DNA of 64,000 bases. Origin: Armatimonadetes bacterium Uphvl-Ar2. Its GTDB lineage: Bacteria > Armatimonadota > Fimbriimonadia > Fimbriimonadales > Fimbriimonadaceae. The notes beneath the pieces are model-generated. The model ran no database searches and was not told where the DNA came from. It saw only the letters and a list, made by a program, of their open reading frames with translations. Of the stretch, positions 36,670 through 54,507 are shown piece by piece; within the stretch, counting starts at the first letter, position 1; each line of letters starts with the position of its first letter. The stretch is from NCBI GenBank assembly GCA_002162095.1, contig CP021424.1:2046001-2110000 (forward strand). The letters are read 5' to 3'. The position numbers and the translations under genes are program-made.

Positions 36670-38703
36670 TTGCGCTTCGCCATATCGGCTCGCTCCTCTT
36701 CAATCGCCACTGCCTCATCCCGCTTGGTGCGCGCAGACCGGAGGGACTCACCGGCAATCACGGCATCCTCATCACCGCCGGCCAGGGACTTGAGATAGGG
36801 CACAGTCTTGGCGGCGTACTCCCGGTAGATGGCCAAAGCCTGGGTGTAGAGCTCGTATTGCCGAGCCGGATCGTTCGCCTCGCGGGCCAAAACCAGGTAC
36901 GCCTTGGCGTGTTCGGTCGGCACGATCTCGGGCAGGGCGCGCAGAGTGTTGGGGGCGGCTTTGGCCATCTCCACCATGGTTTCCGCGGTTTGGCGGGCGT
37001 CTTCGTCTTGACCCGCTTCTTGTTGCAAATCCAAGATGAGGCCGAGCGTGTCTAGGTTGGCGGGGTCGAGGGCGCGCGCCCGTTCCAGAGTTTGCAGGGC
37101 CGCTTCGGCCCCCAGGGTGGCTAGTTGTTCACGGGCCAGCAGGCGCATGTTGCGGGTGCTGGGCAGCACACTCACGGCATTGCGGGCGTGGGCCAGGGCT
37201 TGGTCGCGGTCCACTTGGGCGGCCAGGTTCCACAGCTCGCCGTCAATCTTCGCTTGTTGAGCCAGGGCCACCACGTCCTCGCGGCTGGTGGGGGTCATCG
37301 GCGAATTGATGATAAGGGCGGCCTGCAGTCGCTTCCATTCCAGGTTGGCCGTCCAGAGCGAAACGAAAATTGGGGTCAGGCCGAGGGCGGCAAGGGCGGC
37401 AAAGCGATGGGGGTGCCCCACCGGCTCCGGGTTCGAACCATCAGCACTCACGGCCAGCCATAGGCCGGCCAGCGCCCAAAACAGCCACAAAGAGCCGAAG
37501 AACGACCAGTTGGACTCCACCATCCCGTTCGCGAAGAGGGCTGCCAATGCCCCGAAGAGACAGGCGTGCAGGATCTGCCGCTCCGCAGACTGCGACCGCG
37601 CCCCCCGGAAGCCGTGCCGGGCCGCCATGCCCCCCACTACCAAGAAAAGCCCCAACGCCAGCACGCCGCCCTCCACTTGAAGGTGGAGGAGGTTTTGGTG
37701 CGGGTTGTGGGTTTGGGCCACCTGCATCGGTTTGCCACTGAGGTACCGGAACGAGCCCAAGCCGTGGCCCATGGGGGCTTCCCGGCTGAGGGCAATGGCC
37801 GTGCGCCACAGGTTGGTACGCACGCCGGTACTCTGTTCTTGGGCCGCACCGATGCGCCCGGTGGGGGCCGCGCCGGGCTTCGCGCTCTGGCTATTCGTGA
37901 GGGCAAACCCCAGCAGCACCGCCAAGACCAGCGGCACCAGGGCCGCCAACCCCGCCCGCCCCTGGCGCAAGGCAAACAGCAACCCCGCTGCAATCACCAG
38001 TCCCGCCCCGGCGGCCAGCAAACCGCCCCGGCTCTGGGTAAGCAGCAGCGCCAGCACCAGTGGCAGGATCAGGATGGCCCCAAGAGGTTGAGAGGGCGCG
38101 GGAGGATAAGGCTGAGCCCCACCGCGAGCGGGATGCCGGCGGCAAAGATCACCGCCGCCGCGTTCGGGTTTTGGTAACCCGCAAAGATGCGCCAGGTCGG
38201 GTCGATCGCGCGCATGTCGCCGTATTCCATGGCTCCGCGCAGGCTCATCGCAACGATGGCTAACACAATCGCCCCCAGCACCCATTTGACGCCCGTTCCT
38301 CGACCCGCCACGGCGATGATGGCCAGGAAGGAACCCAGGGCCACCGCCCAACTGGTCCAGGTGGTCCACGCGGGGAGCACGTAAGGGCTGGCAAAGCCTT
38401 GCCCTGCCATCCACACCACCAGCAGCAGCACCGGGGTCAGCACCATGCGGTCGGGCACCAGCATCACCCGGTGCTTGGCGGCCATCGCGAGCCACGCCCC
38501 CAGCACCAGCACCGCCACCAGCGCTCTGGTGACTTGGACCAGTTCGTTCGGGCCGAACAACAGCGCGCCGAAGCTCAAGGCCCCGGGCTGATGTTGTCCA
38601 GGGGCGTGTAGCCGCCGGCCAGGATCGCCACCACTGCCCCGACCATCAACATCCATTGCCCAGCCGTGGGCATGGGGGTGGTGGCTTCGGCCTTGCGGCT
38701 CAC
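36609..38703 (-). pseudogene. O-antigen ligase/polymerase-like membrane protein, two frame breaks
   Basis: The product is read across three frames. Frame 1 runs from GTG 38703 to about 38584 (MSRKAEATTPMPTAGQW-type start and first helix). Frame 2 runs to about 38081 (ALVAVLVLGAWLAMAAKH and further helices). Frame 3 runs to 36609 (ILPLVLALLLTQSRGGLL, then QTHNPHQNLLHLQVEGG, the Wzy/WaaL-like loop) and ends in TPR-like helical repeats. Both breaks lie in four-G runs (38581-38584 and 38078-38081) and each is repaired by one extra G. Likely role is polymerising or joining surface polysaccharide. The GTGA overlaps the glycosyltransferase stop. Confidence 0.75.
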
Positions 38704-39599
38704 TTACGCACCGCCCGCACGAGGGCATCCTTATAGTTCTTGAGCAAGAACAGGCTGGCCCGGGTACCGAGCGCCACCAGCGCAAACCCCGCCGCAAACG
38801 GGCGCAACAGCAGGTTCATCGAGGCCAAATGATGCTTTTGGTAATAGCGGTACATACTGCGGTGGAACCTGATAATCATCTTGTTCGCAATGCGGTCGGT
38901 GCTGCGGCCGATGGCGTGCGTGATCACCGCCGACGGAAGGTACCGAACCCGGAAACCGGCGTCCCACGTGCGCTTGCAGAAGTCCACGTCTTCGCAATAC
39001 ATAAAGAACGAGGGGTCCAGCCCGCCAATCTTCTCGTAGACCTCGCCGCGAAGGAACAGCGCCGCGCCGCTCACCCAGTCCACCTCTCGTTCTTCGGAGT
39101 GGTCGAAACCGACCATCAGGTAGTCCTTAACGTACCGATTGTTGGGGAAGAGGCGACCCAAAATGGTGTTCCGGAAGGCCGCCGCCACCGGGTTGGGAAA
39201 GCGCCGGCAACTGAACTGGAGCGACCCATCGGGGTTGAGCAACTTCGGGCCGACCACGCCCACTTCGGGGTTGGCCCGCATGAACTCCAGCAGGGTGCCG
39301 ATGGCCCCCGGGTGCACCACGGTGTCGCTGTTCAGCAGGGCCGCGTGATGCCCTTTGCGTTCGGCCAGGGCGCGGTTGTGGCCACCGGTGAAGCCCAGGT
39401 TCGTCTCGCTGCGGATCAACCGAAACTCGGGGAACTCGGTGGCGATCATGTCGGCACTGCCGTCCGCGCTGGCGTTGTCCACCACGATCACTTCGAACTC
39501 GGTGGTCTGCCGTTCCGCCCGCAGGCTGGCCAGGCACGCCCGGGTATCCGCGATGGTATTCCAACTACAGATGGTGACGCTGAGTTCGAAATCCGGCAT
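38700..39599 (-). CDS. Family 2 glycosyltransferase
   Basis: About 299 aa from ATG 39599. GT-A fold signatures: TICSWNTIADTRACLASL, IVVDNASADGSADMI, the DXD-like LLNSDTVVHPGA, and FFMYCEDVDFCKRTWDAGF. The C-terminus has a hydrophobic stretch (about residues 265-285). It resembles rhamnosyltransferases. It probably builds the same surface glycan as its neighbours. Confidence 0.9.
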   Translation of the reverse strand: MPDFELSVTICSWNTIADTRACLASLRAERQTTEFEVIVVDNASADGSADMIATEFPEFRLIRSETNLGFTGGHNRALAERKGHHAALLNSDTVVHPGAIGTLLEFMRANPEVGVVGPKLLNPDGSLQFSCRRFPNPVAAAFRNTILGRLFPNNRYVKDYLMVGFDHSEEREVDWVSGAALFLRGEVYEKIGGLDPSFFMYCEDVDFCKRTWDAGFRVRYLPSAVITHAIGRSTDRIANKMIIRFHRSMYRYYQKHHLASMNLLLRPFAAGFALVALGTRASLFLLKNYKDALVRAVRK

Positions 39600-40446
39600 G
39601 ATATCCACGAGCACGCACAAAAGCGGCCAACCCGACAAGGATGGCCAACAGTGGCAAACCGAGCCTTGCAAAACCCCGCGTGTGCTTAGAAAAGTAACGC
39701 AATAGGCTACGGTGTGATTCCCAGATCATACTGGGTCGCACCTGCCGGGTGCTGGCCCCGTGGTGGTGGGCAATGGTCAACCCCGCTTGGTACCACGCCG
39801 GCCACCCCGCCTGCGCCAGCCGGTAGAGCAGGTCCACCTCGTTAAAGAAGATGGGGAAGTTCTCGTCGAAGGGAGCCTTCACGTCGCCAATGGCGGCCAG
39901 GGCTTCACGGCGGAACAGCAAGAACGTGCCCATGGGCTGCGGGGCCGGACCGCTGGCTGCGTAATCGAAGGCCGGGAGCAAGTAGCTCCCCAGTGCCCCG
40001 TGAGGTGAGCGCCGCGCCAACCCCGTGAACTGCCCCACAATGCCCCAGAACGAAGGGAATCCCCGCACGCTGGCCTGGATATCGCCGCTGGGCAACTGGA
40101 AGGGCACACTCAGCACCCCAAACTTGGGTTGCGCGCGCAGGGCGTCAATTGCCCCTTGCAGCACGCCGGGGCGCAGTTCCGTGTCTGGGTTGAGGGTCAG
40201 GAGCCACTCCCCCTGGGCCACCGTAAAGGCCAGGTTATTGCCGGCCGCATAGCCGGTGTTGAAGCTCGGCTGGATGAGCTGAACCTCCGGAAAGTCCCGG
40301 GCCACCATCTCCGCGCTGCCGTCCGTGCTGGCGTTGTCCACCACGATGATCTCCATCGGCTCCTGCGGCGGGTGCGCGCGCAGGCTTTTGAGGCAGATTT
40401 CCAGGTGGGAACGGGTGTTCCAATTGACGATGAGGACGCTCAGCAA
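39565..40446 (-). CDS. Family 2 glycosyltransferase (rhamnosyltransferase-like)
   Basis: About 293 aa. SVLIVNWNTRSHLEICLKSL, IVVDNASTDGSAEMV, LLTLNPDTELRPG and FFNEVDLLYRLAQAGW are clear GT-2 motifs, and the protein is a paralogue of the next gene. TTG 40446 is my best start because it gives the family N-terminus; longer forms up to 40608 would overlap the divergent NlpC gene. The 3' end overlaps its neighbour by 35 nt. Confidence 0.85.
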   Translation of the reverse strand: MLSVLIVNWNTRSHLEICLKSLRAHPPQEPMEIIVVDNASTDGSAEMVARDFPEVQLIQPSFNTGYAAGNNLAFTVAQGEWLLTLNPDTELRPGVLQGAIDALRAQPKFGVLSVPFQLPSGDIQASVRGFPSFWGIVGQFTGLARRSPHGALGSYLLPAFDYAASGPAPQPMGTFLLFRREALAAIGDVKAPFDENFPIFFNEVDLLYRLAQAGWPAWYQAGLTIAHHHGASTRQVRPSMIWESHRSLLRYFSKHTRGFARLGLPLLAILVGLAAFVRARGYHAGFRTQRHHL

Positions 40447-40611
40447 CGCGCTTGCAAGGCTACCAGGGACCCAGGACAGGCGACCCGCCCAGATTCGCGA
40501 AATACCGGGAATTGGCGAGGAACTAGGAACAATCCAGGTAAAGTATCCGAAGATACGACTGTCACACGGCGTATTTTTACGCTTGGCAGACGTAACGGAG
40601 GAAACCAAGTT

Positions 40612-42249
40612 TTGGCATTAACCGGCGCCATTTGGGGCGCGATGATGGTGGGTGCAGGCAACGCCAGTGCCCCCGTCAAGTACCAGGTACAGAATAACGA
40701 AACCGCTGTTACAGTGGCAAGGAAGTTTGGGCTGGATGCGAAAGAGCTCCAAAAGGCGAACCCGGGCGTGCAGATTGCACCCGGTGTCACAGTCCTGATC
40801 CCGTCGCGCGTGCTCGCCGACGATAAGGGCCCCATTTACCTCGTGCGCAACGGGGATACCGACTGGAGCATCGCTCGCCGGTACAACCTGCGCCCGGCGC
40901 AGCTCCATGTGCTCAACCCCGATGTGGATTGGGGTCGCATGGAAGTTGGCACCGTCATCCGCGTCGGCACGGCCATGCAGGCCCGCACCACGCAACTGGA
41001 AGCCCCGCGACCCGTCGCTCCGGCTCCGCGCCAGGATGCCTCCACCACCGGCGCCAATGCCGCCACCAAGATTGAAACCGTCCCCTACCGCGTCGCGGAA
41101 GGCGACAACGACTGGACCATTGCCAGCAAGGTGGGCGTGCCGCCCAGCCAGATCCGAGACCTGAACCCGGGCCTGGACTGGGACAAGCTGACCGTGGGCA
41201 CCGTCATTCAAGTGCCGAAGGAAGGCCGCGCCGTGGTCACCAACGTGATTGCCACCAGCCGCGTGCAACTGAAGGGTGACCGCGTGAATCTGCGCGCCGA
41301 GCCCAACACCGACGCCCGCATCATTGCCAACCTGCCCCGAGGCCGGGTGGCCAACGTGCTGGACCGCCAAGGCGACTGGTACAAGATCCAATTCGCTGGT
41401 GGCACCATCGGCTGGATGAGCCGCGATTTCCTGGAGCCGGTGAGCGCCGATACGCTCGCTCGCACCGCCGAAGGCCAAGCCCTGCTGCAAGCCAGCGTGG
41501 CCCCGGCCAGCGCGAGCGTGACGGGACCCGCCGCTGCCGCCCAGAACGACGCCGTTTTGGCGAGCAACCTCTCGGCCGAACCCGTGCCGGACCCGGACTT
41601 GGGTGCGGTGGGCAACATGCTGGCCACGGCCCGCTCCCAAATGGGTGTCCGCTACAAGTGGGGCGGCACCAGCCGCAACGGCTTTGACTGCAGCGGCTTC
41701 ACTACTTATGTCTTTGCCAAGCACGGCATCAACCTTCCGCGCACCGCAAATGCCCAAAGCAACGTGGGCCGCGTGGTGCAGCGAGGTGCCCTACAGCCGG
41801 GCGACCTGGTCTTCTTCAAGACCAGCACCTATGCCCGTGTGACGCACGTGGGCATCTACATTGGCAATGACCAGTTCATCCACGCCAGCAGTGGTGGTGG
41901 CTCGGTGCGCATCAATAGCCTGAGCGAAAACTACTACAACCAGCGTTACGTGGGCGCGCGCCGGGTGCTGGGCATCCAGGCCAACGCCAACGGCTACGAA
42001 GGCTACGACGTGAGCGAAGAGTGGGCCTACAACAACGCCCCGGGTGCCAGCACCCGTGCGGCCAGTGCGGCCTACCTGAACCAGAACGCTTCGCGATCGG
42101 AAGAGCCCGTGGCTGCGGCTCCTCGACAAGAAGCTCCGGCTCCTATCCCGGCCCCGACTCCGGCGCCTGTGAAGGAAGCTCCGGCTCCCGCTCCGGCTCC
42201 GGGTTCGGCCCCGCCGATGGGCATGGGCTCCGACATCATCGCCCGGTAA
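40612..42249 (+). CDS. LysM/SH3/NlpC-P60 peptidoglycan endopeptidase
   Basis: About 545 aa. Two LysM repeats (about residues 23-65 and 75-120) and a third LysM-like repeat near 160-205 bind glycan. An SH3 domain (VNLRAEPNTDARIIANLPRG) follows, then the NlpC/P60 domain with catalytic Cys in GFDCSGFTTYVF and His in VTHVGIYIG. The tail is Ala/Pro-rich. It probably cuts stem peptides outside the membrane. TTG 40612 has GGAGG about 10 nt upstream; the signal peptide from it lacks positive residues, and an ATT start near 40576 would restore RR, so the start is open. Confidence 0.88.
   Translation: MALTGAIWGAMMVGAGNASAPVKYQVQNNETAVTVARKFGLDAKELQKANPGVQIAPGVTVLIPSRVLADDKGPIYLVRNGDTDWSIARRYNLRPAQLHVLNPDVDWGRMEVGTVIRVGTAMQARTTQLEAPRPVAPAPRQDASTTGANAATKIETVPYRVAEGDNDWTIASKVGVPPSQIRDLNPGLDWDKLTVGTVIQVPKEGRAVVTNVIATSRVQLKGDRVNLRAEPNTDARIIANLPRGRVANVLDRQGDWYKIQFAGGTIGWMSRDFLEPVSADTLARTAEGQALLQASVAPASASVTGPAAAAQNDAVLASNLSAEPVPDPDLGAVGNMLATARSQMGVRYKWGGTSRNGFDCSGFTTYVFAKHGINLPRTANAQSNVGRVVQRGALQPGDLVFFKTSTYARVTHVGIYIGNDQFIHASSGGGSVRINSLSENYYNQRYVGARRVLGIQANANGYEGYDVSEEWAYNNAPGASTRAASAAYLNQNASRSEEPVAAAPRQEAPAPIPAPTPAPVKEAPAPAPAPGSAPPMGMGSDIIAR
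42118..42215 (+). repeat. Ala-Pro low-complexity coding repeat
   Basis: Repeated GCTCCGGCTCC-type units encode (Ala-Pro)n runs in the tail of the NlpC/P60 protein. This is a flexible linker or wall-spanning segment within the gene, not a separate element. Confidence 0.6.
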
Positions 42250-42260
42250 ATCCTGGCGAC

Positions 42261-42312
42261 GGCCCCTGCGGGGCCAACCGACCCGACCCCCTTGCAACCA
42301 GGTGGTCGGGTC
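42261..42312 (+). terminator. Two hairpins after the NlpC/P60 gene
   Basis: A 6-bp stem (42261-42266 with 42270-42275) is followed by a 9-bp stem GACCCGACC/GGTCGGGTC (42280-42288 with 42304-42312). No T-run follows, so this is a possible weak or Rho-dependent terminator upstream of the tRNA gene. Confidence 0.45.
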
Positions 42313-42336
42313 TGGCATTATCTTCAGGCACCCCGT

Positions 42337-42412
42337 GCCCCGGTGGTCTAGCGGTTAGGACGCCTCCCTTTCAAGGAGGAAATCGCGGGTTCGAATCCCG
42401 TCCGGGGTACCA
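42337..42412 (+). tRNA. tRNA-Glu (anticodon UUC)
   Basis: Complete cloverleaf: acceptor GCCCCGG/CCGGGGT (first pair G-U), anticodon stem CCTCC/GGAGG with loop CTTTCAA (anticodon TTC), T arm with TTCGAAT and encoded CCA. The last 18 nt plus one base are repeated about 100 bp downstream. Confidence 0.96.
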
Positions 42413-42418
42413 ATTGCA

Positions 42419-42450
42419 AGAGCCCTGGCACCAAGTGTCAGGGCTCTTTT
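42419..42450 (+). terminator. Rho-independent terminator after tRNA-Glu
   Basis: A 13-bp stem (42419-42431 with 42435-42447, one G-T pair) with a 3-nt loop, followed by TTTT. Confidence 0.85.
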
Positions 42451-42496
42451 GATTTCTACCTTTCCGGTATGAGATGCGCGCAGCGCAATGGGGGAT

Positions 42497-42514
42497 TCCC
42501 GTCCGGGGTACCAA
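42497..42514 (+). repeat. Duplicate of the tRNA-Glu 3' end (att-like)
   Basis: TCCCGTCCGGGGTACCAA at 42497-42514 repeats 42396-42413 exactly, covering the 3' T-stem, acceptor strand and CCA of tRNA-Glu. No other part of a tRNA can be folded around it. It may be an attachment-site scar or the remnant of a lost second tRNA gene. Confidence 0.7.
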
Positions 42515-42654
42515 CGCCGCTTGGTTCCTTACACGATCTAGGGTAGCCTCCGGTTCTTAACATTCCGAACTCGAATCGCCTTCGGCTCCTTAATCATCGG
42601 GGTCTCCCGGTGGGTCTGGCGCGCGGTTCGATCGGATTCCGGTGAAGCGCATCC

Positions 42655-43326
42655 ATGAAGACTCGAAGCCTGCTTGTTGTTCCCGTTCTGGCCGCGATCC
42701 ATGTCGCCTTTGCCCAAGGTGTGGTGGAAGACAACCGGGCCTGGCTGAACATCAACGGCACCGGAAAGATCAGCAAAGACTGGTCGTGGTACGGGGAGTT
42801 TCAGCCTCGCTTCCGCGACAACTACTCGAAGCTCGATCAGCTGACCTTGCGCGTAGCCGCCATCCAACGAATCAGCCCTCGGCTCTCCGTGGGCTATGGC
42901 TACGGCCGTATCACCAACTACCGCCCCGCCGGCGATGTCCATGAGGATCGCTTGTGGCAGATGGTCACCTATAACCCGCCGGCCCTCGGGCCGGTGAATC
43001 CCCAATTGCGCCTGCGCCTAGAGCAGCGCATGGTCGATAGCGGCTCCGACACGGGATGGCGAGTGCGACTCCAGGCCCGTGGCACCCGGCCGATTGAGGG
43101 CACCAAGTGGTCGGTCTTTGTGAGTAACGAGTACCTCTACAATCTCAACTCCACGGATTGGGGAGCCACGCGGGGTTTTGATCAGAACCGTTTTTCCCTC
43201 GGCCTGGGCTACCAGACCTCAAAGCAGGTGCGGGTCGAGTTCGGCTACTTGAACCAGTACTCGCGCGGGGCCAGTGCCGACCGGAGCAACCACGTCATCT
43301 TCTTTACGACGGTCTTCAGTTTCTAA
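42655..43326 (+). CDS. DUF2490 family outer-membrane protein
   Basis: 223 aa with a signal peptide (VVPVLAAIHVAFAQ). The sequence is a run of amphipathic beta strands with the DUF2490 pattern (WSWYGEFQPRFRDNYSKLDQ, then RLRLEQRM and RFSLGLGYQTSKQVRVEFGY) and ends in FFTTVFSF with a terminal Phe. It is likely a 10- to 12-strand barrel in the outer membrane. Function unknown. Confidence 0.88.
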   Translation: MKTRSLLVVPVLAAIHVAFAQGVVEDNRAWLNINGTGKISKDWSWYGEFQPRFRDNYSKLDQLTLRVAAIQRISPRLSVGYGYGRITNYRPAGDVHEDRLWQMVTYNPPALGPVNPQLRLRLEQRMVDSGSDTGWRVRLQARGTRPIEGTKWSVFVSNEYLYNLNSTDWGATRGFDQNRFSLGLGYQTSKQVRVEFGYLNQYSRGASADRSNHVIFFTTVFSF

Positions 43327-43416
43327 GCCTCAGGCGCCGTGCTTATGGGGCAGAACCGCAAGGCGGGGCATTGTTGTTTTGTGGTGACACGTAAGGGCGA
43401 CGGGTAACCTCGTGCG

Positions 43417-43890
43417 ATGCCGCACCAGGGACTCCGGAGAAACGGGGAACAGACCACACCCAGCGTCCTCAACATCTTCGGTGACCTGGTTTCGATCAGG
43501 GTTGCAGGGGCAGAAACGGGCAACCAATACACGGTCATTACGAGTCAGACTCCACCTCTGGGCGGGCCACCGCTCCATGTGCATATCTCTGACGCCGAGA
43601 CGTTCTACGTCATAGAAGGCACGTTCCTGTTCGAGTTGGATGGTGAGGTCGTTCACGCCCAAGCTGGAGACGTGGTTCAGGTTGATCCGGGGGTAAAGCA
43701 CCTTTATCAGAACGTGGGTGCGGAGCCCGGCCAGCTGCTGCTTGTGGTGTGCCCCGCCGGGTTGGATGAGTTCTTTATCAAACTTGACGCTCTCCTCAAG
43801 GAATCGGAGCACCCGCCGATGCCTGAGATTGCGGCGCTGCACGCCCAATACAACATGGAACTCCACGGCCCCCCGATGGCGGCTCGGTAG
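43417..43890 (+). CDS. Cupin domain protein
   Basis: 157 aa single-domain cupin. Metal-binding motif 1 is PPLHVHISDAETFYVIEG (His-x-His and Glu) and motif 2 is GDVVQVDPGVKHLYQN (final His). The metal and substrate are unknown; similar proteins include quercetinase-like and sugar-binding cupins. The C-terminal 40 residues are helical and outside the barrel. Confidence 0.85.
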   Translation: MPHQGLRRNGEQTTPSVLNIFGDLVSIRVAGAETGNQYTVITSQTPPLGGPPLHVHISDAETFYVIEGTFLFELDGEVVHAQAGDVVQVDPGVKHLYQNVGAEPGQLLLVVCPAGLDEFFIKLDALLKESEHPPMPEIAALHAQYNMELHGPPMAAR

Positions 43891-44039
43891 AATCGTAGCC
43901 ACGCATGGCCGTGAGGCGGGGCGGCTGGAGTCAGTGATGCCCGGCGGGCCGTCCGAGGGTCTCTACACGCAGATCGTCACGGGGCAGTTCTGGCGATCGT
44001 TTACTTCTTTGCTGCTGGAACTCCAGGTATACCCACGCC

Positions 44040-44684
44040 ATGATCTGCGCTTTGCTCCTCGCCACCACCACTGCCCCCAGCGCCCCGGCCGGCTCCGTGC
44101 GCCTGTTCAACGGTCGGAACCTGGAAGGCTGGACGCAGCTGAACGGCACCGCCACCTACACCGTGGAGGACGGCGCGATTGTGGGGCGCACCGCCGAGGG
44201 CAGCCCCAACTCCTTCCTCTGCAGCAACAAGATGTACGACGACTTCGAGCTCTTCTTCGAGGTCAAGGTGGACGACCCGCTCAACAGCGGCTGCCAGATC
44301 CGCTCCCTCCAGTCCGAGGGGCTGCAAGGTCAGCCGGAAAAGGGCCGCGTGTGGGGTCCGCAGGTCGAGATCATGGCCGGCCCCGGCCACTCCGGTTACA
44401 TCTACGGTGAGGCCACCCGCTTCGGCTGGCTTTCCCCCGAACCGAACCAGCCCGGATCGAACCACACCATCTTTAAGAACGGCGGCTGGAACCAGTACCG
44501 CATCCTGGCCCAGGGGCCGCGCATCCAGACCTGGGTGAACGGCATGAAGGTCGCCGACCTGACCCACGACGAGGTTTACAAAACCCACTCGCGCGGGTTC
44601 ATCGGGCTGCAGGTGCACAGCATCGCGCGGGGGGCTGGCCCCTACGAAGTGCGCTGGCGCAACCTCCGCATCCTGGAGCGCTAA
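44040..44684 (+). CDS. DUF1080 (3-keto-disaccharide hydrolase-like) domain protein
   Basis: 214 aa with an N-terminal hydrophobic stretch (MICALLLATTT) that may be a short signal peptide. The DUF1080 pattern is complete: RLFNGRNLEGW, then DDFELFFEVKVDDPLNSGCQIRS and GGWNQYRILAQGPRIQTWVNG. It is a jelly-roll glycan-active domain. The region 43891-44039 upstream holds no gene that I can support. Confidence 0.88.
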   Translation: MICALLLATTTAPSAPAGSVRLFNGRNLEGWTQLNGTATYTVEDGAIVGRTAEGSPNSFLCSNKMYDDFELFFEVKVDDPLNSGCQIRSLQSEGLQGQPEKGRVWGPQVEIMAGPGHSGYIYGEATRFGWLSPEPNQPGSNHTIFKNGGWNQYRILAQGPRIQTWVNGMKVADLTHDEVYKTHSRGFIGLQVHSIARGAGPYEVRWRNLRILER

Positions 44685-44695
44685 GGCAGCGGGGC

Positions 44696-44725
44696 AAAAA
44701 AAGTGGGGTCGGCGCTATGCCGACC
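44696..44725 (-). terminator. Rho-independent terminator
   Basis: GGTCGGC/GCCGACC stem (44707-44713 with 44719-44725) with a 5-nt loop; on the minus strand it is followed after a short CCAC by a seven-T run (44696-44702). It ends the NHL-repeat gene fragment and may also stop the DUF1080 transcript. Confidence 0.85.
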
Positions 44726-44745
44726 TCATCTTCGTTTCTCGATCC

Positions 44746-45195
44746 TTACGGAACGAGGGCGTCCAACGCGAAGACTTGTCCCCCTTGACCGGTGAACAAT
44801 CGCCCCGTCCTTTTGTTGACTGCCATATGGCGCGGAATGAACTGGAAAACCTTTGCAAAGCCGTCGCCAGAGTACAGGCCCGCCACTAGTACCGTGTAGA
44901 GTTGTCCATTCCTGAACACGCGAACTTTGCCACTAGGGCTCGAAACGTAGACGGAGTCACTGTCGTCGACGGCCAGATAGCGCACCTCCCGGATGGCCCC
45001 GGCGTTGTCATCATCTCCGGCTGTACCGGTGCCTGCAACGGTGGTGACGTTGCGTTGGACATCAATCTTTCGGATGCGGGCATTGTTGGCGCCTGCAACA
45101 TACACGTTCCCGAAGCGATCGACATCTACCCCTTGTATATTGGAACTGAATTGCGCTGCAAGCTGCGCGAAGGTGAGTGGCACATCGGCCGCCAC
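44746..45195 (-). CDS. NHL-repeat protein, probably 5'-truncated
   Basis: 149 aa from GTG. Two to three NHL/beta-propeller blades are visible (NIQGVDVDRFGNVYVAGANN, then ARIRKIDVQRNVTTVAGTG and REVRYLAVDDSDSVYVSS). Whole propellers need five to seven blades and a signal peptide, neither of which is present. An in-frame stop (TAG) lies about 10 codons upstream, and the upstream DNA changes to a lower-GC patch. It looks like the 3' end of a larger gene cut off by that patch. Confidence 0.65.
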   Translation of the reverse strand: MAADVPLTFAQLAAQFSSNIQGVDVDRFGNVYVAGANNARIRKIDVQRNVTTVAGTGTAGDDDNAGAIREVRYLAVDDSDSVYVSSPSGKVRVFRNGQLYTVLVAGLYSGDGFAKVFQFIPRHMAVNKRTGRLFTGQGGQVFALDALVP

Positions 45196-45395
45196 GTGTG
45201 GGCTCTTCAGTTCAGGAGGGACCTAGAGTCCGAGGGTCCACCAAGTGACATGACGATGTATGCAATAAGTAATTTAACGCATGTGAGCTGTCAGTCCTGC
45301 GGGCTTCAATCAAAGTCTAAAAGAGGCCAAAAGCGTTGGCCTAAACCAATGATGGAACTTAGGTTCTTCCCGAACTCTTTCTGGATCCTGAGTTG

Positions 45396-46193
45396 TCACG
45401 CACGGACTACAGTGCGCTTGCGGAGAATGGATAGCAGACCGATACCCAATGCGACAATGGAAGCTGGCTCGGGCACAGCTGTTGTTGTTAGGGTGATGTC
45501 ATCAAGCAACGTCGTACGGTCATCAACTCCGGTCAAGTTTCCAAATGAGTCGTACACAAAGGGGCTCAAGCTGTTAAAGTTGAGCGTGTATGTTCGCCCC
45601 GAGATAAGCGTGAAGCTTGTGCCGGTTCGCGCGAACCAACCCTGTTTTCCGGCCAGAGTGAAGCGATCGTCAGGAGCATTTGTCCAGCTGTTTGAATCCA
45701 AACCCAGAAACACCTCACTTGTGTAACTCCCAATAAGTTGTGTGTTGCCGAAGTTATCAACGAGAGTAACGTTATACTCGTTCTGTCGGCCAAACCATGT
45801 ATGCTCTCTCCAGGAATTCCGATTTGAGTCGAACCAAGAAAGGGTGCCGATGGCGTCTTCAGTCGCAAGGAAGGACTGTGACATTGTCTGACGATCTTTT
45901 ATGATGCCCATGACATCGCCAGTGCGCGCCCACTTCCAGCCCGTAGTGAAATCCTCAGTGCGAGCAATTGCGCCGCCTGTCCATGCACCAGCAAAGTTGT
46001 TTTGCCAAGAACTCCATCCCCAATTGCTCCAGGCGGCACCCCATTTTGAACCGTCGGATTGCAGATAAAAAGGATTTTCTTGAGATACCGCCTGATTCTC
46101 GAAGCTGCCGTCCAAAAGAGTCGTTGCATTTGCCGGAACGACTAGTGCAAGGTGCGTGGCGATCGTAAGAGCGAGTTTAGATGGGAGTTTCAT
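45396..46193 (-). CDS. PEP-CTERM sorting-domain protein
   Basis: About 265 aa from ATG 46193. A signal peptide (LALTIATHLALVVPANA) is followed by a Trp- and Asn-rich beta-sandwich-like body (FENQAVSQENPFYLQSDG, then WGAAWSNWGWSSWQNNFAGA). The C-terminus is a PEP-CTERM signal: VPEP, a hydrophobic helix (ASIVALGIGLLSIL) and RKR. An exosortase should cleave it, but none is in the window. Codon use and base composition are more AT-rich than in neighbours. Confidence 0.85.
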   Translation of the reverse strand: MKLPSKLALTIATHLALVVPANATTLLDGSFENQAVSQENPFYLQSDGSKWGAAWSNWGWSSWQNNFAGAWTGGAIARTEDFTTGWKWARTGDVMGIIKDRQTMSQSFLATEDAIGTLSWFDSNRNSWREHTWFGRQNEYNVTLVDNFGNTQLIGSYTSEVFLGLDSNSWTNAPDDRFTLAGKQGWFARTGTSFTLISGRTYTLNFNSLSPFVYDSFGNLTGVDDRTTLLDDITLTTTAVPEPASIVALGIGLLSILRKRTVVRA

Positions 46194-46725
46194 TTCTCTA
46201 AAAGCGATGTCGGAATTCGCGGCGGCCTTCAGTGTTTCATGAGATGATCGAACAAAGCCATACGATATTGTACACGACACTTTCTGTTAGTCGCAATCAG
46301 TAATGTTGCGGGAATCAATCAGGCACAGGTTCCCAGCATAACTACTAGGAGTCGCGACTGTGCTTGGTGCGTTACCAAATCCTTCTAACCAAGCATGGGG
46401 TTCGTCAAGCGTTGTGTGTCTAGGCTTGCACGATGGCTTAGACCCAGAAAGACTGCGTTGCAGGAGGTTCGTTGCTGTAGAGGTGCTGAGCTCATCTTCG
46501 ACTCGGTGTGTATCGGGATCGAACATAGCATAGCGCTGATTGAGTGTTGCGGGCGGAAGCTGACTGCATCAACAGGTCTCGTAGCTGAAGGCGTGCTTGA
46601 CCTCTCCAGAAATAGCTGCTAGCCTCTCGTGCCCGGTACTGCTGGGAATGAGAGGAGTGTATAGATGGCCTATTGGATTGTTTCGTATTGCATTGTTCGA
46701 TATTCATCTGGTTAGATGTTTTTTG
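46194..46725. other. AT-richer intergenic stretch without a supported gene
   Basis: About 530 bp. Two short ORFs (plus strand 46395-46622, minus strand 46287-46526) lack ribosome sites, family features or a conserved look, and I do not call them. The 46194-46320 part is likely the promoter region of the PEP-CTERM gene. The base composition is visibly poorer in GC than the flanks. Confidence 0.5.
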
Positions 46726-47442
46726 ATGTTCACCGCCGTGGCCCTGCTGGCAAGTGTCAAGCCTTCGGACGCCGCTTTGCTCTTGGCTGGCGGTGGCTCG
46801 ACCACTCCCGAGATGGTGCGGACCTTCATCCAGGCCATCGGGGGGCCGGACCAACCGATCTTGGTTGTCCCCCTCATGCGGGAGAGGGCGGACGAAGCGG
46901 GACGTCAGTCGGCTGACTTCTTACGGGAAAACGGGGCCAAGAACGTGGACGTGTTTCTCGAAGTTGAATACCGTCCCTTGGACCAGGCTGCCACCCGGAC
47001 TCGTTTCCTGCGGGCAAAGGGACTTTGGCTACCCGGCGGTGATCAAGGCCTGTTCATGCAAAGGCTGGGCTCGAGTTTCGCCAAAGACCTCTTTCAGCTG
47101 GCCCACCGCCGGGGGATCTCGGTGTTCGGCACCAGTGCCGGAGCCATGCTGATGAGCGACCCGATGATTGATGGTTGGGAGGATGACACTCGGCCTAAGC
47201 GATCGCCGGGGTTGGGGCTGATTCCTGTGCTGGTGGATACGCACTACCGCGAACGCGAAAGGCAGGGGAGGCTGCGGTTTGCCTTCGAGAACTGGAACTC
47301 GCACACCCGGGCCCTCGGCCTGAGCGAGGGGGAATGGATCTTGTGGCAAGGTGGCCGGGTTCGGCAGTCCTCCGGTCGCCCGGAGTGGGTTGAGTCTCCT
47401 GCTTTACCGCAGAGCACTGGGCGTAGAAAGGTCCAAATCTAA
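46726..47442 (+). CDS. Cyanophycinase-like S51 family peptidase
   Basis: About 238 aa. Residues near the start have the Gly-rich loop LLLAGGGSTTPEMV. LWLPGGDQGLFMQ and the nucleophile motif GTSAGAMLMSD (Ser) follow, then a His in DTHYRERERQGRL, in the order of cyanophycinase and S51 dipeptidases. A hydrophobic N-terminus (MFTAVALLASVKPSDA) may be a signal peptide. The ATG at 46726 is uncertain. Cyanophycin is only one possible substrate. Its stop TAA overlaps the next ATG (TAATG). Confidence 0.8.
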   Translation: MFTAVALLASVKPSDAALLLAGGGSTTPEMVRTFIQAIGGPDQPILVVPLMRERADEAGRQSADFLRENGAKNVDVFLEVEYRPLDQAATRTRFLRAKGLWLPGGDQGLFMQRLGSSFAKDLFQLAHRRGISVFGTSAGAMLMSDPMIDGWEDDTRPKRSPGLGLIPVLVDTHYRERERQGRLRFAFENWNSHTRALGLSEGEWILWQGGRVRQSSGRPEWVESPALPQSTGRRKVQI

Positions 47443-47932
47443 TGTCTGGGATCAACAATCCCATCGACCCCGGCCCCCGCATCGGCCACGTGCATCTGCG
47501 CGTCGCCGATCTGGACCGCGCCCTCGCCTTTTATCACGGCGTGCTCGGCTTCGATATCACGCAGCGCATGGGGCGTGGCGCAGGGGCTACCACCACCACA
47601 TCGGCCTCAACACTTTGCAGAGCCGCAATGGTTCGCCGCCGCCTCCAGTAAGCACGGGGCTGTATCACTTCGCGATCCTTTACCCAACCCGTCGTGCACT
47701 CGCTCAAGCACTGGAATGCCTGAATCAGTCTTTTTACGAGATTAATGGCGCTGCCGACCACGGGGTCAGCGAGGCGATTTATCTCTGCGACCCCGACCAA
47801 AACGGCGTCGAGCTTTACTGGGATCGCCCCGTAGAAGACTGGCCCCGCGATGAAGCGGGCGAGTTGAAAATGGTCTCGGAGCCGCTGGATCTGGCCGCCC
47901 TGCTAGCCGAGTTCGATGACGCCAGCCGTTAA
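47442..47932 (+). pseudogene. VOC family (glyoxalase/catechol dioxygenase-like) gene, broken
   Basis: The first part (47442 onward) reads RIGHVHLRVADLDRALAFYHGVLGF. The second, in another frame from about 47587, reads GYHHHIGLNTLQSRNGSPPPPVSTG, then GVSEAIYLCDPDQNGVELYWDRP. The family normally has AAFLSAGGYHHH-like residues at the joint; about five residues plus one base appear to be missing (a deletion of about 16 nt near 47577-47587). This is not a single homopolymer error, so the gene is probably truly inactivated. Confidence 0.75.
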
Positions 47933-47969
47933 CTCGCAGCCCGCCCGACTTCGTGTATAAAGAAAGGGA

Positions 47970-48401
47970 ATGGGCACGCGGAACGCTTGGGAGAAAACGC
48001 GACAGGATCACGCCAAGGAATCGGCGGAAGACTACGTGGAAGCCATCTACCGGCTGGAATCTCAAGCGCGGGACGCGGGCGATGATCGCCGCCAAGTGCG
48101 CCTGACCGACCTGGCCGATCAATTCCAGGTCAGTGCCCCCACCGTCAGCAAATTACTGGCCCGGTTAGAGTCAGAAGGGTTGGTGAGCGTGCAGCCGCGC
48201 AGCCACATTGAGTTGACCGAGGAAGGGCTGCGCGTGGCCGAGCAGAGCCTGCGCCGCCACCAGATCGTGGTGGACTTCTTGGAAAAACTGGGGGTCTCAG
48301 CGCACCAGGCCGAGCTCGATGCCGAAGGCATTGAACACCACGTGAGCCAAGAAACCTTAATCGCCATGCAGCGGTTTTTGGAGCAAGAATTCAAGGACTA
48401 G
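47970..48401 (+). CDS. mntR: MntR-like manganese/iron-dependent repressor (DtxR family)
   Basis: 143 aa. N-terminal winged helix (EDYVEAIYRLE, then VRLTDLADQFQVSAPTVSKLL and GLVSVQPRSHIELTEEG) and a helical dimerisation and metal domain (VVDFLEKLGVSAHQAELDAE and EGIEHHVSQETL). No SH3-like third domain, as in MntR rather than DtxR. It probably represses metal uptake genes, but none are adjacent. It converges with the DinB-like gene with a 4-nt overlap. Confidence 0.88.
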   Translation: MGTRNAWEKTRQDHAKESAEDYVEAIYRLESQARDAGDDRRQVRLTDLADQFQVSAPTVSKLLARLESEGLVSVQPRSHIELTEEGLRVAEQSLRRHQIVVDFLEKLGVSAHQAELDAEGIEHHVSQETLIAMQRFLEQEFKD

Positions 48402-48880
48402 CCGACGTAGACTTGTTGATCCCCCCAACAAGTTTGGAGGAAGTCAATTTGGCCGCAGTGGAGGTTGGCGTGGGTGGCGGGGAGGTCCACCAAGAACCGC
48501 ATCGGCATGCTCCAGCCCTGCCCGGAATCCAGCATTGCGTTCAGATCCTCGGGCTGAAGAGCATCCATCGCCGCCAGAACCCGCTCCGTCCCCGCCCGGA
48601 AAGCCGCTTCTACTTCTCCTCGAAATGTCACCGCCCGCTCCTCCTGCTCCCGCGCGGCCAACCATTCATCCAAATTATCCGGCTGCGGCAACACACGCGT
48701 CTCCATCATCGCCGCAAAGCGGGCGGCATAGAGGGCGGTGTGCGCGGCAATGTGGAGGGGTGATTTGGCCCCCGGCGCGGCCTGCCAGTGCAGCCGTTCA
48801 TCCGGCACCTTGGAGAAGTTGCGGAGGAACATCTCCATTGCACTCACGGCCCGCTTCTTGGCGGCTTCAATCTCAGTCAT
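48398..48880 (-). CDS. DinB-like four-helix metal-binding protein
   Basis: About 160 aa from ATG 48880. DinB/YfiT-like helical bundle: an early His in RLHWQAAPGAKSPLHIAAHT and late His residues in THANLHCGQIDFLQ would bind one metal. Family members include thiol transferases; the substrate is unknown. It is divergent from the SIMPL-domain gene. Confidence 0.82.
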   Translation of the reverse strand: MTEIEAAKKRAVSAMEMFLRNFSKVPDERLHWQAAPGAKSPLHIAAHTALYAARFAAMMETRVLPQPDNLDEWLAAREQEERAVTFRGEVEAAFRAGTERVLAAMDALQPEDLNAMLDSGQGWSMPMRFLVDLPATHANLHCGQIDFLQTCWGDQQVYVG

Positions 48881-48947
48881 GGCCAGACTACAACCGACTT
48901 TGCCGCGTGGTGAAACCACGCTGGCAGCAGTCGGCGTCTACATTTAC

Positions 48948-49673
48948 ATGCGCTGGCCGCTCATCCCCGTGTCCCTTGGCGTTTTGGCAGCCTTAGGTTG
49001 CCAGCCCGCCCCGCAAGTTATCGTCAACCCCAATGCCACGCAAAGTGGCCTTACCGTCTCGGGTACGGCCACCGTGCGGGTGAAGCCAACCCTCGTGGTG
49101 TTGAGGCTGGGTGCGAACTTCACGGACGGCAGCATCAAGACTGCCAAATCCAAGACCGAGACCACCATCAAGGCGATTGCAGCGGCGGTGTCCCGCGAGA
49201 AGATTGCGCCCGAAGACGTTCAAACCACGTCCTTCCGGCTTAACCAAACCTATCTGGACAATGGCCGTCGCATGGCCTGGAATTGCCAATCCTCGCTCGA
49301 AATCCGAGTGAAGGATATCGAGAGCGCGCCCCAGGTCCTGGAAGCCGCGCTCGCTGCCGGCGCTAATCAAGTGCAAAGCGTCGAGTACACCGTAGAGGAA
49401 TTGCAGGAGGTTCGGGCTAAGGCCCGGGATGAAGCCTGCCAAGTTGCACAGGCCAAAGCGGACCAATACGGGCGCAATTTCGGGGTGAAAGTCGGCAAGC
49501 CCATTTCGATTTCAGAGACTACGCCCGGCGGCTGGTACTACGGCAGCAACACCATGGCCCAGCGAATGAGCGCGGACATGCCTGCGGCATCGGCTGGAGA
49601 TAGTGAGCGAATTTTGAGTTCAGGATCCGTCGAAGTCCAACTCACTGTGAATGTGAACTATTCCCTCAACTAG
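48948..49673 (+). CDS. SIMPL (DUF541) domain lipoprotein
   Basis: About 241 aa. ATG 48948 gives a signal peptide ending in lipobox LAALGC, so the mature protein is lipid-anchored. The SIMPL domain follows: LTVSGTATVRVKPTLVVLRLG, then TSFRLNQTYLDNGRRM and ARDEACQVAQAKADQYGRNFG. In other bacteria related proteins contribute to oxidative stress resistance, which fits the katG neighbour. No -35/-10 pair stands out. Confidence 0.88.
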   Translation: MRWPLIPVSLGVLAALGCQPAPQVIVNPNATQSGLTVSGTATVRVKPTLVVLRLGANFTDGSIKTAKSKTETTIKAIAAAVSREKIAPEDVQTTSFRLNQTYLDNGRRMAWNCQSSLEIRVKDIESAPQVLEAALAAGANQVQSVEYTVEELQEVRAKARDEACQVAQAKADQYGRNFGVKVGKPISISETTPGGWYYGSNTMAQRMSADMPAASAGDSERILSSGSVEVQLTVNVNYSLN

Positions 49674-49684
49674 GAGCAATCAGA

Positions 49685-49719
49685 CCCTCTTATCTGGACT
49701 CAGCCCAGATAAGAGGGGG
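49685..49719 (+). promoter_or_regulatory. Perfect 13-bp hairpin/dyad at the perR-like ribosome site
   Basis: CCCTCTTATCTGG (49685-49697) pairs with CCAGATAAGAGGG (49705-49717) across a 7-nt loop. The purine-rich AGAGGGGG that would serve as the ribosome site of the GTG at 49732 lies in the 3' arm. It could be an RNA switch, a protein operator (dyad) or the terminator of the SIMPL gene; no T-run follows, which argues against the last. Confidence 0.55.
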
Positions 49720-49731
49720 TAACGTGACGTT

Positions 49732-52436
<2,705 letters not shown>

Positions 52437-52450
52437 GCGGACGGGCACAC

Positions 52451-52492
52451 ACGGCCTCGGGGGTCTCTGGCCTCCGGGGCCGTTTAGGTTTT
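52451..52492 (+). terminator. Terminator after katG
   Basis: ACGGCC...CGG-GG pairs with CCTCCG-GGCCGT (52451-52463 with 52471-52483, two mismatches) followed by TTAGGTTTT. A moderate Rho-independent terminator, also close to the stop of the convergent DUF1905 gene. Confidence 0.7.
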
Positions 52493-52781
52493 AGCCAGAG
52501 CCAAGCCGCACCGTGCCCACCACCACTGAATCCACCGTCAGGTTCTCGGCGCGTTGCAGGTCTACTTTGAGCGGCACGAGATAGCCCCCATCCTTGGGCA
52601 TCAGGCTCGTTTTCACCGTGGTGTCCCCGACGGTTACCGTGCAGGTGATGCACCCCCAGCCGTAGCTCAGCTCCCGGGCCACGGCCCGCACCTGTGCGGC
52701 GGCTTCTTCGGGCAGGCGGGCAAAGAGGAACGGGGCCGGGCCGCGCCACTCAAAGGCCACCGCTTCAAAGGGGATTTCCAT
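52491..52781 (-). CDS. DUF1905 domain protein
   Basis: About 96 aa. DUF1905 pattern: AFEWRGPAPFLFARLPEEAA, then YGWGCITCTVTVGDTTVKTS, PKDGGYLVPLKVDLQRAENL and VDSVVVGTVRL. A small soluble beta-rich protein of unknown function. ATG 52781 or GTG 52784 is the start. Confidence 0.85.
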   Translation of the reverse strand: MEIPFEAVAFEWRGPAPFLFARLPEEAAAQVRAVARELSYGWGCITCTVTVGDTTVKTSLMPKDGGYLVPLKVDLQRAENLTVDSVVVGTVRLGSG

Positions 52782-52873
52782 CACTATCGCCCGAGTTTAG
52801 CGGAACGTGGTCATAGCCCACCTTGGGGGTCCAGCAACCTGGTTGGCTACCCCGGCGTAATCTCGATTGAAAG

Positions 52874-53239
52874 ATGGCTGCATGCGAAATGAGCCCCCCG
52901 AGCAAACGGGCGTACATCAGCGCCGTCGGCGAAGAACTCGTCAAGCGGCACGGCAAAAAGAAACACTACGACCCGGCGGATATCCGCACGGCCTCACTGG
53001 CCCGGGGCTTTGCCATTGATTACGTTTGCTGGGCGCATGCGGTTTTTGCCACTTCCGGCGACTTCAAAGCCCTTCACGATGCTCTGGGAGAAGCCTGCAA
53101 CTACACCGCGATGCGGGCTGAGGTCTTGAAGGACCTTTCCGGCGGCTCATTCCAGTGGCCCGACGTGGATCTTTCGTGGCTAGATTGGCCGGATATTGAC
53201 CTTTCCGGCATCTTCGATTGGTTCCCTTGGAATCCGTAA
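52874..53239 (+). CDS. Hypothetical protein with Trp-Pro-Asp repeats
   Basis: 121 aa. No family recognised. The first 90 residues are helical in look and contain no signal peptide. The C-terminus carries a short degenerate tandem repeat: WPDVDLSWLD, WPDIDLSGIFD, then WFPWNP. An ATG at 52889 is an alternative start. It converges with the flavoprotein gene by 7 nt. Confidence 0.65.
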   Translation: MAACEMSPPSKRAYISAVGEELVKRHGKKKHYDPADIRTASLARGFAIDYVCWAHAVFATSGDFKALHDALGEACNYTAMRAEVLKDLSGGSFQWPDVDLSWLDWPDIDLSGIFDWFPWNP

Positions 53240-53246
53240 GTCGGCT

Positions 53247-54491
53247 CTAGGATCGCACAAGCTCGCAAGCCGATTCCCCCGCGACAAACCCGGTGGCAAA
53301 GGCCGCCTGCAGGTTGTAGCCACCCACCGGCCCGGCGATATCCAGAATCTCGCCGCACAAAAAGAGGTTCGAAACGAACTGACTCTGCATCGTCTGCGGG
53401 TTCACTTCGTCCAGGCTCACACCCCCCGCCACCACTTCGCCCTTCGGCAATATCACCTCGCGCACGGCCCCCAAAGGAAACCCCTTCAGTCCGTTCAGCA
53501 AGCGATTGCGCACCTTGGTCGGGGTTTGCGCCATGGGCGTAGTTGCCGGAATCTCGAGCTCAAAGAGCATGCCTTCCAGGAAACGCTCCGGCCCAAACGG
53601 TTCTAGCCACGTCGCGACTTGCCGTCGGGGGTTCTCCCGGGCATAGGCCAAGAACCGCTCCGTTAATTCTTCAAAGCTCAGGTCCGGCACCACGTCCACC
53701 TCCAGAGTCACCGGGGCCTGTGAAATTTGCTCGCTCACCTCGCGGCTAATGCCCAGGCAGCACGGCCCGCTAATGCCCCGGTGCGTAAAGAGTAGGTCAC
53801 CCCGCCACTGGGTAAACGCTTTGCTCTGCCGCCCGCGTAGCACGCAGTCACGGAGCGCAATTCCCGCCCAGTCTTCGCGCATCTCGCGCAAGTGAATGGG
53901 AGCCAGTGCCGCCAATGTGGTCACAATGCGGTGCCCCAGGGACCGCGCCCACGGCCAGCCGTCGCCGGTCGTGCCAGAGTTCGGATAAGAGGAGCCCCCC
54001 GTGCACAGCACCACGGCCCCAGCTTCTACCGGGCCTTGCTCCGTCAGCACGTGGCTAATCTCGGATCCCGCCCGTTCAAATCCGGTCACTGGGCACTCCA
54101 AGCGAATGTCCACCCCGGCCTCCCGCAAGTACGAACGCAGGATCGCCACCACATCCTTGGCGGTGCCGAGGGTAGGGAAGATGCGCCCGTCTGGGCGGGT
54201 GTAGACCTCCAAGCCCCGCGAGGTCAGCATGTCCACGATCACGTGGTTAGGGAAGCGGTAACAGGCCGGACGGATGAAGCGGGTTTCGTTCGGGCGGAAC
54301 GCCCGCAACACGTCCTCCAGCGGGCCGTCGTGGGTGATGTTGCACTTCCCTCCACCTGAGATGAGAATCTTGGTGCCCAGGCGGTTGGTTTTCTCCAGCA
54401 GGATGACCGGCGCCCCCAGAGTGGCAGCGCGCCAAGCCGCCATGATGCCGGCGGCTCCGGCCCCCACCACCACGACGGGCTTGTTGCTCAT
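53247..54491 (-). CDS. HI0933/YhiN-family flavoprotein
   Basis: 414 aa. N-terminal FAD-binding GAGAAGIMAAWRAATLG, then LGTKILISGGGKCNITH, the signature of HI0933/YhiN proteins, and CTGGSSYPNSGTTGDGW. A C-terminal FAD motif (FLCGEILDIAGPVGGYNLQ) closes the fold. The substrate of this family is poorly known. Confidence 0.92.
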   Translation of the reverse strand: MSNKPVVVVGAGAAGIMAAWRAATLGAPVILLEKTNRLGTKILISGGGKCNITHDGPLEDVLRAFRPNETRFIRPACYRFPNHVIVDMLTSRGLEVYTRPDGRIFPTLGTAKDVVAILRSYLREAGVDIRLECPVTGFERAGSEISHVLTEQGPVEAGAVVLCTGGSSYPNSGTTGDGWPWARSLGHRIVTTLAALAPIHLREMREDWAGIALRDCVLRGRQSKAFTQWRGDLLFTHRGISGPCCLGISREVSEQISQAPVTLEVDVVPDLSFEELTERFLAYARENPRRQVATWLEPFGPERFLEGMLFELEIPATTPMAQTPTKVRNRLLNGLKGFPLGAVREVILPKGEVVAGGVSLDEVNPQTMQSQFVSNLFLCGEILDIAGPVGGYNLQAAFATGFVAGESACELVRS

Positions 54492-54507
54492 CCCGCTAGT
54501 TTAGAAC

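Follow-up and report, generated by a model that had tools for sequence, protein, structure and literature searches.

A duplicated tRNA-Glu 3' end with an intervening hairpin, and similar units behind tRNA genes of related Armatimonadota

Background

Why does the 3' end of a tRNA-Glu gene recur about 100 bp behind the gene in the genome of Armatimonadetes bacterium Uphvl-Ar2, a member of the Fimbriimonadaceae? The repeat lies in a stretch of 64,000 nucleotides of contig CP021424.1 (positions 2,046,001 to 2,110,000, forward strand), which as a whole is called the window here. The 3' ends of tRNA genes are classic docking sites of mobile DNA, for which the standard account requires a large, integrase-bearing element. 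An earlier note on this DNA took the repeat for the remains of an excised or collapsed integrative element and tied it to the block at 42.5-48 kb as past mobile DNA. We give a chance of about one in two to another reading, namely that the repeat belongs to a hairpin unit of about 100 bp with a duplication of the tRNA end derived from its target, situated at a hotspot of recombination.

The repeat and its hairpin

The 18-mer TCCCGTCCGGGGTACCAA occurs at both 42396-42413 and 42497-42514 with 0 mismatches, exactly as the earlier note had it, and the pair grows to 21 bp if one mismatch is admitted (42393-42413 and 42494-42514). From start to start the copies lie 101 bp apart, with 83 bp in between. 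No third site was found in the 64-kb window at up to 3 mismatches, where 0.04 chance sites are expected per shuffled window, and the pair is unique in the genome as well (2,633,441 bases, up to 2 mismatches, two sites only; reversed-pattern control 0). Likewise, a copy of the last 18 nucleotides of the tRNA at up to 3 mismatches is held by 4 of 20000 random 400-bp sequences of local composition. With these figures against it and nothing found in its favour, a chance repeat can be practically dismissed. The window contains the tRNA 3' end twice in the same orientation, one of the features expected of tRNA-targeted integrative elements.

No cargo gene is evident in the 83 bp between the copies, a place where some relatives do have genes. 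Instead, a hairpin resembling an intrinsic terminator sits directly after the CCA of the tRNA; the fold of 42410-42462 has a minimum free energy of -25.8 kcal/mol and a z score of -5.9 against shuffled sequences. Judged from its sequence, this hairpin would most simply be the terminator of tRNA-Glu and end the tRNA transcript. A TGAGA motif lies between it and copy 2 (Table 1), behind which the window has no second hairpin.

Table 1. Positions of the repeat, its body and features to its right, numbered from the first base of the window
Feature	Position	Strand	Remark
tRNA-Glu (anticodon TTC)	42337..42412	+	ARAGORN
Repeat copy 1	42396..42413	+	end of T-loop through CCA plus one base
Body between repeat copies	42414..42496	+	83 bp, no evident gene
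Intrinsic-terminator-like hairpin	42418..42448	+	14 pairs, loop of 3, T-rich tail
GGTATGAGA	42466..42474	+	its TGAGA at +58 from CCA; +57 to +64 in units of relatives
Repeat copy 2	42497..42514	+	18 bp (42494-42514 at one mismatch)
DNA right of repeat pair	42515..43942	+	DUF2490 gene 42655-43326, cupin gene 43417-43890
49-bp remnant	43943..43991	+	matches end of a frame open over 136 amino acids in G001 (C45:5997-6407)
C-terminal gene fragment	44746..45195	-	gene open over 841 amino acids in G001

Similar units in relatives

A common plan, consisting of a hairpin after the CCA, TGAGA near +60 and a copy of the tRNA end at +84 to +139, recurs in nine loci. These are the window, two genes in G005, G021 (copy with 3 mismatches), G063, G066, two genes in G067, and G075, where G numbers stand for the genomes compared. 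G079 carries a variant unit, and decayed-looking versions were seen by eye in G010, G012, G018, G027, G070, G074 and G078. Eight of the unit hairpins fold with z scores of -4.1 to -7.8, though most of them differ in sequence; when 13 units were aligned with MAFFT, the hairpins did not line up correctly. The copies in G029 and G088, about 30 bp or more in length, lack the motif, have weaker folds and are more like ordinary attachment sites.

How common such copies are was counted over 129 distinct tRNA-Glu loci, the window included, nearly all of them from its family (L017, L019 and L021 represent a different family within the order); loci that agreed in the tRNA and in the first 25 downstream bases were merged, the first count having been 130. 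Up to 3 mismatches to the last 18 nucleotides were allowed in the first two sets and in the motif test, and up to 2 in the recounts. In the recounts a same-strand copy of the locus' own 3' end stands within 400 bp at 11 of the 129 loci and within 4 kb at 5 more, hence at 16 of 129 in all, whereas the antisense, reversed and upstream controls gave 0 each. Two copies lie farther away (L083 at +5295, by eye inside a gene, and L280 at +7708) and are probably due to chance. The first set had yielded copies at 8 of 64 loci, again with the window included (controls: antisense 1, reversed 1, upstream 0), and the second at 8 of 45 (controls 0).

The motif goes with the copies. For this comparison, loci with under 100 bp of downstream sequence were set aside, as was an ARAGORN call that lacked a terminal CCA. 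Among the 126 loci used, TGAGA at +40 to +85 is present in 9 of the 12 with a copy within 220 bp as against 9 of the 114 without, a comparison whose p value is optimistic because the motif was derived on some of the loci tested. The longer pattern TTCGANTCC..GATGAGAA occurs at 19 places in 14 of 113 genomes (reversed control 0); it misses most units, that of the window too. These places include three units in G005 and one in G021, a tRNA-Glu of G071 with the motif and no near copy, and three sites behind other tRNAs, where no copy was seen by eye. Some copies are followed, by eye, by a T-arm-like inverted sequence; a scan behind the tRNAs themselves found it in 3 of 64 loci. A further candidate, an RNA switch in which GGGAT behind the hairpin could pair with ATCCC of the tRNA end in several units, was dropped, as the Glu-TTC unit of G005 lacks it and the Arg unit has only GGGAT.

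Rows of copies and copies of the own tRNA

The window has one extra copy only, whereas the Glu-CTC genes of G005, G075 and G067 are followed by three, two and two copies in a row, respectively. A decayed full-length tRNA-Glu-like sequence, recognized by eye, follows the row in G075 (L273) about 350-440 bases after the tRNA. It speaks for the idea that copy 2 derives from a second, ordinary tRNA-Glu gene that once stood in tandem with the first. This idea is very improbable: copy 2 comprises 18-21 bp only, the sequence before it is unlike the tRNA, and a second tRNA-Glu gene, which the earlier note had named as the finding that would refute its own reading, is absent from the 64 loci of the first set.

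Neighbouring units often resemble each other most in the part from motif to copy (97% between units 1 and 2 of G005, 84% between those of G075), and in G070 a nearly identical hairpin recurs after the decayed copy. This is what would be expected if slippage or unequal exchange had duplicated a block of 3' end, terminator and spacer in tandem, in the manner of the Escherichia coli tyrT repeats discussed below and with no mobility involved. Then again, such duplication would leave the window with a second hairpin after copy 2, which it lacks, and it does not by itself account for interiors shared between tRNA genes of a single genome where each copy matches the tRNA that it follows; these need spread between genes. 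We therefore consider slippage unlikely.

The case for spread comes from G005, where units stand at Glu-TTC, Glu-CTC and Arg-CCG, that is at 3 of 45 tRNAs, and where the three unit bodies have ATGAGAAGC and TGTCCTGAGC in common. The same three units (L060, L061 and L128) also hold CCTGAGC-TGTCGAAGG-like strings, which we take to resemble repetitive extragenic palindromic (REP) sequences. Each copy in G005 has 0-1 mismatches to its own tRNA and 2-7 to the others; in G067 the match to the own tRNA is weakly so (0-1 versus 1-2 mismatches). Copies that follow their own tRNA favour duplication of the target over an element with one fixed attachment site, gene conversion being another conceivable source of them. 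Shifts of the downstream DNA lend weak support to an addition of DNA. In G005, whose unit measures 125 bp, the distance from tRNA-Glu(TTC) to one alignable downstream stretch is about 272 bp, compared with about 103-111 bp in G010 and G082; another such stretch begins about 326 bp behind the tRNA in G021 and 30 bp behind it in G076.

Gene inserts, recombinases and the DNA to the right

Could the pair nevertheless be what is left of something larger? In a collapse or incomplete excision of an integrative element, the tRNA as attL and copy 2 as attR would have survived, with the interior lost but for 83 bp. Relatives do have larger DNA at this place: inserts of about 0.7-3.6 kb separate tRNA-Glu from a second copy of its 3' end, and one pair is about 10.6 kb apart. 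The inserts named in the following lie behind tRNA-Glu(CTC). That of G027 (L051, 6412-9332) encodes a short Argonaute with a TIR partner (PADLOC pAgo_I, E 1.1e-162; Aga_TIR, E 4.5e-70), a SPARTA-like defence pair. The inserts of G012 (L053, 3098-3712) and G074 (L288, 453-1664) encode a nucleotidyltransferase of the DUF6036/AbiEii type and a Beta-lactamase2-domain protein, and those of G071 (L281, 438-1124) and G064 (L290, 435-1211) contain related stop-to-stop frames of 229 and 259 residues with no Pfam match. An integrase was not seen among the insert frames listed, family scans having covered the frames named here.

A comparable case within the genome of the window is tRNA-Arg(CCT), with an exact 18-nucleotide copy at +608. 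Two full tRNA-Arg(CCT) genes (L198 and L200, at about 1493143 and 1496501) lie 3.4 kb apart, the partial 3' copy standing 0.6 kb after the first; the pair is likely another integration scar. The scan of all tRNAs further gave a copy with 2 mismatches at +607 of tRNA-Ala(CGC) and matches at Gly (+81) and Cys (+89) that are neighbouring tRNAs, and its controls at up to 4 mismatches gave 2 of 47 for the reversed and 2 of 47 for the upstream search, both upstream ones again neighbouring tRNAs. In G005 the same scan found Gln(CTG) at +557 (2 mismatches) and Trp at +242 (4 mismatches). tRNA-Glu(TTC) is the only tRNA-Glu among the 47 distinct tRNAs of the genome; tRNA-Glu(CTC) is missing here, while both Glu genes are present in several relatives, among them G005, G066 and G067.

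Finally, this genome (G000) and G001, the closest relative compared and of the same genus, have very different DNA to the right of the tRNA. The two align at 92.7% over 38002-42413 and diverge exactly at the tRNA 3' end: contig C17 of G001 ends just after CCAA, and contig C45, which bears the right-hand synteny, opens with the same eight bases. No match was found between C45 1-6356 and window 38001-55000, and none to 42515-43942 in G001 (40 of 59 first-look candidates scored). From tRNA-Glu to Fur-KatG it is 316 bp to the first aligned base in G002, about 7.3 kb to Fur here and about 30 kb in G001. The differences between the three show that the stretch behind the tRNA is plastic, though the repeat pair does not bound it. 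Contigs of G001, G017, G036 and G082 stop 0-3 nucleotides after a tRNA-Glu, and one of G025 starts at a tRNA-Glu 3' end, which fits mixed or repeated ends and is no proof of activity.

These findings identify the tRNA-Glu 3' end as a recurrent site of insertion and exchange in the family, and to that extent the earlier note was right: the repeat is a sign of recombination at the end of the tRNA, and the relatives were worth examining. The AT-richer patch it had pointed to (45-47 kb, G+C content 0.52-0.53) and the gene fragments are present too, but outside the repeat pair. Moreover, the fragments fit deletions relative to G001. The piece at 45148-45234, which abuts the end of the 841-aa gene in the window, matches part of another gene, one that G001 has at a distance of 14.4 kb, and the two abutting fragments at 44746-45234 probably reflect, to judge from this alignment, a deletion in the lineage of the window.

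The larger element itself has less to show. No further copy of the repeat closes the 42.5-48 kb block on its far side, the search of the window having allowed up to 3 mismatches. No integrase lies beside tRNA-Glu or within the repeat-bounded DNA, the PF00589 matches of the genome being confined to 147586, 485739, 508837 and 1644952, the nearest about 443 kb from tRNA-Glu (at 2088337 in the genome); the large serine recombinase family PF07508 has no match in this genome and one in 3 of the 9 genomes searched. In addition, the interior is mostly a terminator-like hairpin, and the short spacing with its layout of hairpin and TGAGA recurs in other genera and in rows. A 101-bp unit that is found singly or in tandem in relatives need not be the leftover of a large element, and the collapse of such an element to its two ends, linked to the block at 42.5-48 kb, is neither needed nor borne out. 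We regard collapse as doubtful, although we rank it above slippage.

Origin of the repeat

Among these explanations we prefer the small hairpin unit to the collapse of a larger element, and collapse in turn to tandem duplication of the tyrT kind. The repeat and its hairpin, together with similar and even tandem units at the same spot in relatives, suggest a scar or a tiny unit and not the edge of a large lost island. The likeliest origin of the small unit would be site-specific insertion at the tRNA-Glu 3' end by a recombinase that acted in trans or is long gone. The tRNA may have been broken in the T-loop during insertion, and it would have been left intact and have gained a terminator. The leftover second 3' end could then act as a new target, which would explain both the rows of copies and the gene inserts in relatives.

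Several observations weigh against this reading. No recombinase is linked to the unit. A close pair with and without the unit between the same flanks was not found, nor was a precise empty site in relatives, so that insertion is something we infer; the adjacency of C17 and C45 in G001 is likewise deduced from the 8-base overlap and synteny. The scan for terminators expects 0.7 chance sites in the stretch that holds the hairpin, and the fold is therefore the stronger evidence for it. In the window the stretch from motif to copy spans only 27 nucleotides, with 29-59% likeness to its counterparts in other units (the segment of G079, where the motif was not recognized, begins elsewhere); its membership therefore rests on layout. 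The second interval in G067 has, by eye, no clear hairpin. Folds of -20 kcal/mol or below are found at 12 of the 114 loci that have no copy nearby, and TGAGA at 9 of the 114; some of these loci look like decayed units, others do not. Finally, none of the 46 other tRNAs of the genome has a unit, which leaves 1 of 47 here compared with the 3 of 45 in G005.

More tentatively, one may envisage a class of non-coding elements of about 100-160 bp in Fimbriimonadaceae-like Armatimonadota, which would insert at tRNA 3' ends (mostly Glu, also Arg), duplicate about 18-20 bp of the tRNA they hit, bring their own terminator, spread between the tRNA genes of one genome and form rows. The tRNA-end copies that they leave might also be used by other gene inserts, the defence pair included. 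What one bacterial family shows, as it stands, is copies of tRNA ends on the strand of the tRNA around bodies with little coding capacity, many of which contain a terminator-like hairpin. Provided that these arose by insertion with target duplication, they would rank as tRNA-targeted elements of very small size, and they could help to explain how inserts of one or two genes, such as the Argonaute-TIR pair, came to lie beside tRNA-Glu without an integrase.

Comparison with known systems

Short units behind a tRNA gene, each with about the last 19 bases of the tRNA, are known from the 178-bp tandem repeats of E. coli tyrT, where RtT RNA is processed from the tRNA transcript. The likeness lies in short tandem units that hold the tRNA end. 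They differ in that tyrT involves another tRNA and another sequence, whereas here the units are mostly single, one also stands at a tRNA-Arg and the hairpin comes right after the CCA. A scan of five loci with Rfam gave no RtT match, only tRNA matches reaching the gathering score. Should slippage be the true cause after all, it would suggest that tRNA-end repeats of the tyrT kind arose independently in a distant phylum. PMC8250186 mentions the tyrT repeats and RtT RNA in passing. Our search of the literature, with subscription papers mostly outside its reach, returned no report of such units in Armatimonadota.

A second comparison is with cis-mobilizable elements, a concept named in PMC3146451 for DNA that is bounded by attachment sites and has no integrase of its own. 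The units share with them DNA bounded by tRNA ends in which no integrase was seen, the gene inserts of relatives included; here, however, no helper element or mobilization is known, and the interval in the window has no evident gene.

The nearest described parallel is the ssrA-specific islands of Dehalococcoides. Of 31 such islands, 15 lack an integration module and 16 have one, with an integrase that the authors compare with Ccr proteins (PMC3146451). The islands bear genes, unlike the 83-bp body in the window, and the genome of the window has no PF07508 match. Yet the resemblance extends to the repeat, which in the window as in such islands reaches from the T-loop to the 3' end over about 20 bp (18 exact, 21 with one mismatch), and to the several repeats in a row, which are found in the relatives G005, G075 and G067.
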